The notes under the pieces: generated by a model
Told to the model about the DNA's origin: nothing
The model's database searches: none
Seen by the model: the letters and a program-made list of their open reading frames with translations, nothing else
Shown here: one piece after another, positions 5,618 through 7,260 of the stretch
How the letters are laid out: each line of letters opens with the position of its first letter
Position numbering within the stretch: position 1 is the stretch's first letter
Position numbers and translations under genes: made by a program
Source: an uncultured Clostridia bacterium
GTDB taxonomy: Bacteria > Bacillota_A > Clostridia > TANB77 > CAG-508
NCBI GenBank assembly: GCA_947594095.1
Contig: CANQEA010000064.1
Span: 1-7,349, forward strand
Reading direction: 5' to 3'
DNA length: 7,349 nt

Positions 5618-5635
5618 TGTTACTTTATAACATAA

Positions 5636-5680
5636 CAAAAAGCCACAGACTTAAATATGAGTCATGTGGTTTTTATTTTT
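5636..5680 (+). terminator. Intrinsic terminator after rplL
   Basis: CCACAGACT (5643-5651) pairs with AGTCATGTGG (5660-5669) with a one-base bulge over an 8-base A+T loop. It is preceded by an A-run and followed by TTTTTATTTTTT. It marks the end of the ribosomal cluster and insulates the downstream switch region from ribosomal transcription. Confidence 0.85.
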
Positions 5681-5737
5681 TATAAAAAATGTAATTTATA
5701 TGTATAAAAAAGAAAAATAATTTCTATTATATATCAA

Positions 5738-5765
5738 TTTTGTCTTTAAGTAAGATACTTAAAGA
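5738..5765 (+). repeat. Left inverted repeat of a putative invertible segment
   Basis: Positions 5745-5765 are the exact reverse complement of 5921-5941 (21 of 21). Extending outward to 5738, the match is 27 of 28, with the single mismatch at 5744/5942. The core is itself nearly palindromic: arms CTTTAAGTA (5744-5752) and TACTTAAAG (5756-5764) around an asymmetric AGA centre. Two recombinase-binding arms around an asymmetric centre is the usual form of a site-specific recombination site. A rival reading is a weak A+T-rich terminator hairpin, since T's follow at 5767-5772. Confidence 0.8.
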
Positions 5766-5796
5766 ATTTTTTATTATTACAATAATATCAAAATAT

Positions 5797-5824
5797 ACTA
5801 TAAAAATCAATACAAAATTGTAAA
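5797..5824 (-). promoter_or_regulatory. Promoter-like sequence inside the invertible segment, pointing left
   Basis: Read on the minus strand, TTTACA (5824-5819) and TATAGT (5802-5797) are separated by 16 bases, each matching 5 of 6 consensus positions. As sequenced it points away from the pilin-like gene, toward the rplL terminator; after inversion it would point into the gene. The best + strand alternative, TTTAAA (5861-5866) and TATAAC (5885-5890) with an 18-base spacer, is somewhat weaker. In DNA this A+T-rich, chance matches are common, so confidence is modest. Confidence 0.35.
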
Positions 5825-5847
5825 AAATAATAAATTATTTTTTACAA
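5818..5847. repeat. 30-bp perfect palindrome within the invertible segment
   Basis: The 14-base arm starting TTGTAAAAAATAAT at 5818 is repeated as its exact reverse complement ending TTTTTTACAA at 5847, with only AA between. It overlaps the -35 box of the minus-strand promoter candidate. It could be an operator for a regulator or an accessory-protein site for recombination, or an A+T-rich cruciform. Function unknown. Confidence 0.6.
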
Positions 5848-5920
5848 AACTAATAATAGATTTAAAGTGCAAAATACTAATAATTATAACATCATCAATA
5901 ACTATAGTCATTTTTATAAA

Positions 5921-5948
5921 TCTTTAAGTATCTTACTTAAAAACAAAA
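5921..5948 (-). repeat. Right inverted repeat of the putative invertible segment
   Basis: This is the inverted partner of 5738-5765: the 21-bp core at 5921-5941 is identical in reverse complement. Arms CTTTAAGTA (5922-5930) and TACTTAAAA (5934-5942) surround a TCT centre, the complement of AGA in the left copy, so the two sites are in head-to-head orientation. Recombination between sites so arranged inverts, rather than deletes, the DNA between them. The repeat ends just before the AAGGAGAGG site of the pilin-like gene at 5956-5964. Confidence 0.8.
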
Positions 5949-5970
5949 ACATAAGAAGGAGAGGTAAAAT

Positions 5971-7119
5971 ATGTTAAAAGAAAAAGTAAAAAACAAAAGA
6001 TTAAACATTAAAGGTACTAATAAAGGTATCACTCTAATTGCCTTAGTTATTACAATAATTGTTATCTTAATCCTAGCAGGAGTAAGTATTAACACATTAT
6101 TTGGAGATAATGGGTTACTAACAAAAGCACAAGAAGCAGCAGATGCAAACACAAGAGCAGGGGCGTACGATAAGGTAGCAACAGAAGTATTTGCAAGTTA
6201 TGATAATGATGGAACTTTAAATGAAGACACATTAAGAACAAATTTAAAAAGAATAGGAGGAACAACAGAAGATGGAAAAGATTTAGAAGACGAAGAGCAA
6301 GAAGGATTTCCAATAACAATAAAAATGGATGGAAGTACATTTCTCATAAATGGTGAAGGAAATACAATAAGTACAGATGAAATAAAAATAGGAAATGCAA
6401 TAAATGCAGAAAATTATGGAAATGAAGTAAAAACAAAAAATTCAAAAACAGAATTATCAAATGGAACATGGAGATTATTTTATCAGGATGGGAATTACAC
6501 ATATATAATACATGATGAGTTAGTATCATTAAATGGTTCATTAGAAGATAAATATGGAGATAATTATAACAGTGGAACAGTAGGAGCAATAGGACAAGCA
6601 TTAAATCCAATGATAAAAGCACAAAAACCAGACATGTTTACATTAAGTGACGGTCTACAAAATATGAAAGGAGTAGCTTACTTAACAGATCCGGATAAAT
6701 GGAAAGAATATTCAAGCGGATTAAATGGAGCATTATATGCGATAGGAGGCCCAACAATAGAATTATTTAGAGCATCATTTAATGCTGCAATAAAAACGCA
6801 TGAGGAAATGAATGATGCAACGGAAATATCGGAATTCACAATTGGTGACACTGGATATAGTGAGGAAGAAGTGATGATAGGTAACGATTTTTTCAAAACA
6901 GACTATAGCAAAGGAATATACAGAAAAGGAGATGAAGACGTCGGTTGGTGGTTGGCTTCGCCTCGCGGGTACTACAATGATTTCGCTTTGTGGATAGTTA
7001 GTGAGTATCAGGGGATTTTGAGCGAATGTGAAGAAAATTGGGTGGCGGGTTTTGTCCGTCCTTTGGTTTGTTTTCAAACATCAGAATTCAACTCATTATA
7101 CAGTTGTGACTCAGAATAG
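5971..7119 (+). CDS. Pilin-like surface protein with a C-terminal WWLASP...VRP domain
   Basis: The 382-residue protein begins with a short basic leader ending in K-G (18-19), then I-T-L-I-A-L-V-I-T-I-I-V (20-31) and a hydrophobic helix to about residue 40, the plan of a type IV prepilin/pseudopilin signal. The usual glutamate at +5 of the mature protein is Ala24. The leader is probably cut by prepilin peptidase or kept as an anchor. Residues 41-165 are Asp/Glu/Thr-rich; T-W-R-L-F-Y-Q-D-G-N-Y-T-Y-I-I (166-180) recalls surface proteins of gut Firmicutes. The C-terminal V-G-W-W-L-A-S-P (324-331) to G-F-V-R-P-L-V-C-F (360-368) resembles DUF6273/C-type-lectin-like domains, some of which are targets of diversity-generating retroelements. 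Codons for 324-368 are conspicuously richer in G+C than the rest. ATG 5971 follows AAGGAGAGG with ideal spacing. Expression probably depends on the upstream invertible segment. No ligand is assigned. Confidence 0.85.
   Translation: MLKEKVKNKRLNIKGTNKGITLIALVITIIVILILAGVSINTLFGDNGLLTKAQEAADANTRAGAYDKVATEVFASYDNDGTLNEDTLRTNLKRIGGTTEDGKDLEDEEQEGFPITIKMDGSTFLINGEGNTISTDEIKIGNAINAENYGNEVKTKNSKTELSNGTWRLFYQDGNYTYIIHDELVSLNGSLEDKYGDNYNSGTVGAIGQALNPMIKAQKPDMFTLSDGLQNMKGVAYLTDPDKWKEYSSGLNGALYAIGGPTIELFRASFNAAIKTHEEMNDATEISEFTIGDTGYSEEEVMIGNDFFKTDYSKGIYRKGDEDVGWWLASPRGYYNDFALWIVSEYQGILSECEENWVAGFVRPLVCFQTSEFNSLYSCDSE
6940..7074 (+). other. Candidate variable region (G+C-shifted 3' cassette)
   Basis: Counting bases by eye, the block around 6937-7077 is about 47% G+C (67 of 141), against visibly A+T-rich sequence on both sides. 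It uses codons avoided elsewhere in the window, such as CGC, GGG, GCG, TCG, CGT and CCT. It encodes fixed-looking ends (GWWLASP and FVRPLV) around a middle that is chemically mixed (Tyr, Phe, Trp, Ile, Cys, Glu, Gln). This is the pattern expected of a diversity-generating retroelement variable region at the 3' end of a lectin-like gene. No template repeat or reverse transcriptase is present in the window, so the assignment is tentative. Confidence 0.45.
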
Positions 7120-7137
7120 TTGAAGATTTTACTGAGT
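7087..7137. repeat. Overlapping short inverted repeats at the end of the pilin-like gene
   Basis: TTCAACT (7087-7093) pairs with AGTTGAA (7118-7124), CAACT (7089-7093) alternatively with AGTTG (7102-7106), and ACTCAG (7109-7114) with CTGAGT (7132-7137). They straddle the stop codon just after the G+C-rich block. Hairpins placed just after the variable region are known to assist retrohoming in some diversity-generating retroelements; these are short and could be chance. Confidence 0.3.
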
Positions 7138-7193
7138 TTTGAGGGGAAATTGCCATAATATTATAAATCATTAGGATGGGGACGAAAAACATC

Positions 7194-7239
7194 AAAAAGA
7201 GCATATGTTTATCTTAGGATAAATCTATGCTCTTTTTTT
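7194..7239 (+). terminator. Strong intrinsic terminator after the pilin-like gene
   Basis: AAAAAGAGCATA (7194-7205) pairs with TATGCTCTTTTT (7226-7237) and, after a two-base internal mismatch, TTTATC (7208-7213) pairs with GATAAA (7218-7223) over a TTAG loop, followed by more T's. The A-run on the left means it could also act on the other strand. The 7120-7193 stretch before it contains no gene. Confidence 0.88.
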
Positions 7240-7260
7240 ATGTTTCTTCATTCTAAAACC

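Follow-up and report, generated by a model that had tools for sequence, protein, structure and literature searches.

What accounts for an inverted repeat lying in front of a putative surface-protein gene within a ribosomal-protein region of an uncultured member of the Clostridia? The window analyzed here, i.e., the whole stretch of 7,349 nucleotides, is presumably such a region, the end of the 23S rRNA gene, the 5S rRNA gene, and the genes for L33, SecE, NusG, L11, L1, L10, and L7/L12 having been named from open reading frames (ORFs). The host is A+T-rich, and the closest L10 loci, among the best 80 that were kept, belong to uncultured Clostridia (88-91%). An ORF of 248 aa (502-1248) between the 5S gene and a flavin reductase-like gene gave no match in Pfam or NCBIfam at E 1. 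Region 5738-5948 is very probably an invertible promoter, flipped by a tyrosine recombinase encoded elsewhere, which would read into a pilin-like gene in the ON state and toward rplL in the OFF state. The features concerned are as follows.

5619-7259: putative inserted cassette (switch, gene, and terminator), missing here in relatives that retain the downstream flank
5738-5768: left arm of the inverted repeat, with the site core TTAAG-TAAGATA-CTTAA at 5746-5762
5763-5923: putative invertible segment of 161 bp, flanked by the two site cores, gene-free
5782-5810, minus strand: predicted sigma-A-like promoter, -35 TTGATT at 5810-5805, 17-nt spacer, -10 TATTAT at 5787-5782, leftward and hence OFF
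5918-5948: right arm, the same site in inverted orientation, with its core at 5924-5940
5971-7119, plus strand: pilin-like gene, 382 aa, with a hydrophobic N-terminal helix, a candidate C-type-lectin-like C-terminal domain, and a hypervariable patch at residues ~332-360
7194-7237, plus strand: terminator-like hairpin 3' of the pilin-like gene, 20-nt arms (90%), loop of 4, followed by a T run

The two arms, 31 nt each and 149 nt apart, are 94% complementary. They contain a perfect core of 21 bp (5745-5765 and 5921-5941) with a spacing of 155 bp, or 28 bp with one mismatch, around a gene-free segment, exactly as the first-pass annotation had described them. No ORF of at least 50 aa was present inside the 5738-5948 segment in the ORF list of the window, and the antisense ORF 5937-6152 overlaps the right arm only. 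When the longest perfect inverted repeat at a gap of 20-400 was recorded in shuffled sequences, 300 dinucleotide shuffles of the window reached 15, and 3000 shuffles of the intergenic region 5618-5970 (84% A+T) reached 17, compared with the 21 observed. The earlier argument that A+T richness alone hardly explains the repeat was upheld by these shuffles, but as an argument from length it is incomplete, each arm being itself near-palindromic (TTTAAGTA-AGA-TACTTAAA, with TTAAGT-N5-ACTTAA as the general pattern). Because of this near-palindromy, the distinction between inverted and direct pairing rests on the centre of the site and its outer flank, the repeat length is also compatible with two operators, and inversion can be decided only by comparison with relatives.

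The gene behind the repeat starts at 5971 after an AAGGAG-type ribosome-binding site. It had been called a pilin-like surface gene directly downstream of the switch; its position and the term "pilin-like" are appropriate, but a type IV pilin is not established. Type IV pilins are defined by an N-methylation motif in which position 5 is Glu; the window protein (KGITLIALV) has Ala where this motif has Glu, and its score for PF07963 (13.4 bits) lies below the cut-off of 21.2, so that only "pilin-like" is used here. The score for DUF6273 (17.9 bits) is likewise below the Pfam cut-off of 23.5. The C-type-lectin-like fold of residues ~146-381 is a candidate assignment from a structure model based on 99 sequences, which was used in place of a poor model from 14 sequences (pLDDT 56.6). 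No match to the window protein was found in phage records. The tail of the gene is G+C-rich (0.45-0.53 at 6931-7050 vs. ~0.3, the G+C-rich region being noted up to 7080), and the hypervariable patch lies between the conserved motifs WWLASP and VRPLVC. From these two features, variation of the gene by a retroelement was considered; no DNA similar to the gene tail that could be a template repeat was found in the relatives' loci examined. Reverse transcriptases accompanied by repeat pairs were observed for other genes in relatives (L133, L134, L141, and L148), where 22/23, 20/20, 25/25, and 17/18 of the repeat-pair differences, respectively, fall at adenines of one copy; judged by sequence, these pairs are diversity-generating retroelements, some of them located beside pilin-like genes.

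Comparison with relatives revealed a family of similar elements. As a single copy, the site is rare, which is counted against the inversion reading: when two mismatches were allowed, it was found at 10 positions spread over 7 of the 22 near genomes vs. 4 for the reversed pattern. Two of these ten sites form an inverted pair in G013 (23 bp perfect, 155 bp apart) directly before another pilin-like gene. Pairs were then sought as two palindromic sites at a given distance, irrespective of orientation and with the reversed pattern as control: 3 elements were detected in 2 of the 22 near genomes (control 1), and 66 elements in 14 genomes among 387 relatives of G013 (control 2 places). An unsupervised look at pilin upstream regions, which found a repeat of at least 13 bp in 13 of 39, prompted the use of widened arms (TWRAGT-N5-ACTYWA), with which 64 elements were detected in 20 of 241 genomes and none with the control. 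These searches overlap one another. A total of 104 elements from the window and 26 genomes were parsed, one of which (in L244) overlaps another and was dropped, leaving 103; in G079, 5 of 10 elements lie outside the parsed set, identical copies being counted once. The members share the same site, a spacing of ~135-175 bp, an internal promoter, and a position before pilin-like genes, and the largest number (20) was found in one genome of 1.4 Mb. A second arm type (TAGAGT-N5-ACTCTA) occurs with the same spacing before pilin-like genes (L085, L104, L108, L110, L295, and L300), and arm types can be mixed inside one element. While 83 of the 103 elements sit before pilin-like genes, 20 have no pilin-like start in reach, which is counted against the inversion reading. 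Thirteen of these 20 lie no more than 350 bp from the end of a contig (e.g., L169, L200, L201, L255, L258, and L262), where recurring gene starts or a mixture of orientations could disrupt assemblies.

Conservation of the repeats in relatives, by which the first-pass annotation had proposed to judge its switch, was found in part: homologous elements do precede pilin-like genes, but the repeats are not kept at the same place, because the whole switch together with its gene is an insertion in the window. At 19 of 77 loci, the downstream flank is retained and the cassette is missing; there, 31-295 bp separate the rplL stop from the matching base, compared with 1643 bp in the window.

The centres of the sites carry much of the argument, since strand exchange in the centre requires that the two sites match there, whereas two operators do not. 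The central 5 nt are identical between an element's two sites in the inverted reading in 101 of 103 elements and in the direct reading in none, the two exceptions being G056 L171 and G014 L331, although 47 forms of the centre exist among the 103 elements, or 48 with the dropped row, and the arms differ between partner sites in 20 of 104. Random reassignment of partners over the 104 rows gave 4.2 matched centres on average (maximum 13). Shuffling of partners inside genomes (104 rows) gave a mean of 48.8 (maximum 66), which is high because centres are near-uniform in G182, G079, G125, and G136; many centres being alike within such genomes, a match says less there. Without these four genomes, 60 of 63 elements were matched vs. 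16.1 in the shuffle (maximum 29), one of the three misses being the dropped row. Near-uniform centres were seen in 15/20 elements of G182 (L197 and L251-L262), 5/5 parsed elements of G079 (L189-L192), and 6/6 of G125 (L360-L365). Other genomes have centres that nearly all differ, e.g., G001 (6/6 distinct) and G025 (5/5). Between orthologous elements of G013 and G001, a single centre base has changed, and it has changed in both sites.

Orientation was assessed from the internal promoter. Across the family, a sigma-A-like promoter (best TTGACA-N17-TATTAT) lies ~15-22 nt from one site; the window promoter, on the minus strand at this very position, scores 10 of 12, a value reached by 0.24% of shuffled interiors. 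The window element is thus predicted to be in the OFF orientation, its promoter facing away from the gene, and after inversion transcription would start ~60 nt before the ATG and read into the gene. Position-bound promoter scoring was used for the family, as position-free scoring gave unreliable states. With the gene side as reference, 62 of the 103 elements were called OFF and 5 ON, whereas 36 were uncalled (the 20 that lack a reachable pilin-like start, and a further 16 whose scores were too close); an earlier pass over 62 elements had given 27 OFF, 4 ON, and 31 uncalled. The rarity of ON (5 of 67 called elements) is counted against the inversion reading, and some ON calls are weak (e.g., G120 L183, 9 vs. 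7). A hairpin with a T run at -8 kcal/mol or below faces the gene in 21 of 62 OFF elements vs. 0 of 124 base-shuffled controls, and at -4 kcal/mol the counts are 30/62 vs. 28/124; a search of the window's own segment for such a terminator-like hairpin was negative.

Paralogs within one genome were compared as well. In G182, the interior of the element at L197:595 matches that at L255:2207 at 65% directly and 96% inverted, with 94% in the gene-side flank and 64% in the far flank, and that at L256:283 at 64% directly and 95% inverted (flanks 91% and 67%); in a tandem pair of G117, the values are 63% and 84% (flanks 88% and 70%). Because the interiors match in inverted form beside a flank that runs the same way, inversion has happened in this family, and the comparison of orientation in related genomes that had been recommended at the outset indeed found both orientations among paralogs of the relatives' elements.

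A candidate recombinase was found in relatives. Among the PF00589 matches in the 22 genomes is a recombinase gene of G057 whose end lies 6 bp in front of an element, which in turn is followed by a pilin-like gene. The protein has Phage_integrase and SAM-like domains (PF00589, 109 bits vs. a cut-off of 27.1), its closest solved structures carry the name Int protein, and R, HxxR, H, and Y are conserved in at least 95% of aligned full-length copies. Matches at E 1e-30 exist in at least 73 of 387 genomes, a lower bound since up to five candidates were scored per genome. The recombinase is present in 23 of 25 element genomes vs. 50 of 362 others (Fisher 2e-16, kinship ignored, with the widened site pattern covering 241 of the 387 genomes). 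Two results are counted against the association: none of this family was found in the element genomes G051 and G117, and 50 genomes have the recombinase with no element found. Of the 21 recombinase loci read, 8 have an element no farther than 5 kb away (L244, L294, L295, L300, L305, L307, L308, and L313), neighbouring matches having been noted for L244 and L305 before these loci were read. There is no recombinase inside the 7.3-kb window, and it would be a member of this family that acts on these sites. Together, the matched centres, the opposite-orientation paralogs, and the linked tyrosine recombinase in relatives support the initial proposal of a probable invertible switch before a pilin-like gene.

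The recombinase gene has a peculiarity of its own. In 14 near-clade genomes (L294-L304, L272, L273, and L277), a T9-T11 tract lies between the first catalytic arginine and HxLRH, which leaves the gene out of frame in 11 and in frame in 3; five more distantly related copies carry 8-9 consecutive T in frame at this position, and the copy in G042 is split without the tract. Beyond the tract, the 11 out-of-frame copies differ by 0.020, 0.017, and 0.318 at codon positions 1, 2, and 3 (4125 codon pairs), and since differences are concentrated at position 3, the out-of-frame part is under selection. Among the 22 near protein clusters compared (of 120 listed), 11 are full-length (309-310 aa) and 11 stop at the tract or shortly beyond it (227-244 aa), and the cut P0163 and the full P0129 are 97.3% identical over 226 aa. 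Replication slippage and transcriptional slippage would both fit the tract, and single assembly errors may lie behind some of the frames.

Different explanations of the repeat can be weighed against these results. Two operators of a dimeric regulator flanking a promoter, with an inverted look that merely stems from near-palindromes and nothing that flips, would agree with the near-palindromic form of each site and with the likeness of arms across the family, but a regulator would neither force equal inverted centres (101/103 vs. 0 direct) nor place paralog interiors in opposite orientation; this reading is very unlikely and was rejected on the matched centres and inverted paralogs. It is extremely improbable that the repeats mark the termini of a small element that can move or be excised (attachment sites or transposon ends). 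Insertion of switch and gene at this place and the integrase family of the recombinase would suit such an element, but the repeats enclose the promoter segment only and leave the inserted gene outside, the same segment precedes a wide variety of genes, in paralogs the interior is inverted while the flank on the gene side stays as it is, and among the loci read none has the gene but lacks the segment, cut out exactly at the repeats.

A fossil switch, in which the promoter is locked OFF and no longer flips here, appears unlikely. The OFF state of the window and of 62 of 67 called elements, the absence of the species' recombinase from the 7.3-kb window, and the frame loss in 11 of the 14 near relatives with the tract speak for it, whereas the window's sites and promoter are intact, a full-length recombinase is present in the other 3 of these relatives and in half (11/22) of the near protein clusters compared, and strong selection acts on the sequence beyond the tract.

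For the invertible promoter, the following mechanism is proposed. A tyrosine recombinase from elsewhere in the genome would bind both near-palindromic sites, and strand exchange in the 5-7 nt centre would flip the DNA that they enclose. The internal promoter would read into the pilin-like gene at 5971 in one orientation (ON) and back toward rplL in the orientation assembled here (OFF). We infer that the segment inverts in this strain, that inversion affects expression, and that the gene product acts as an adhesin. A two-tier switch is a tentative extension, somewhat less than an even prospect, in which slippage at the tract might gate the recombinase in some cells or transcripts and thereby reset many adhesin promoters, while element-specific centres might confine flips to single elements and guard against deletions between copies.

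Similar arrangements are known. In Bacteroides fragilis, one recombinase serves many invertible promoters of surface structures per genome (capsule promoters; Mpi and others), which is similar in having many switches per genome, although pilin-like genes and a tyrosine recombinase are involved here. In sites of the loxP type, palindromic arms enclose a short asymmetric centre, which has to be the same in the partner site, as in this family, whereas here many natural centres coexist per genome. Within Clostridia, inversions with tyrosine recombinases have been described in PMC5903667 and PMC11892184. According to PMC5903667, the invertible promoters of C. difficile (cwpV, flagellar, and other Cdi switches; RecV), a member of the same bacterial class, have short inverted repeats in intergenic segments before surface-protein or signalling genes and a tyrosine recombinase; their geometric resemblance had been pointed out by the first-pass annotation. 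However, the repeats of different C. difficile switches are mostly unrelated in that account, whereas here many pilin-like genes share a single family of sites, with a centre specific to each element. Clostridia inverton group 139, with tyrosine invertase group 35, is described in PMC11892184 and likewise has a tyrosine recombinase within 5 kb. In the literature searched (open-licence PMC), no paper was found on invertible promoters that precede pilin-like genes in these uncultured bacteria, nor any on a DNA invertase under a homopolymer tract.

By its testable features, region 5738-5948 belongs to a known class, the invertible promoter. As far as these searches go, two things are new: many pilin-like genes share a single site family whose centres differ from element to element, and the candidate recombinase contains a slippage tract. 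These findings bring to light numerous promoter switches in front of adhesin-like genes of uncultured gut Clostridia. Centres that match within and differ between elements represent an inversion record readable from assemblies without reads, and therefore invertible promoters could be detected and classified in their thousands. If the tract truly gates the recombinase, the way in which bacteria set the rate of phase variation would become directly testable.
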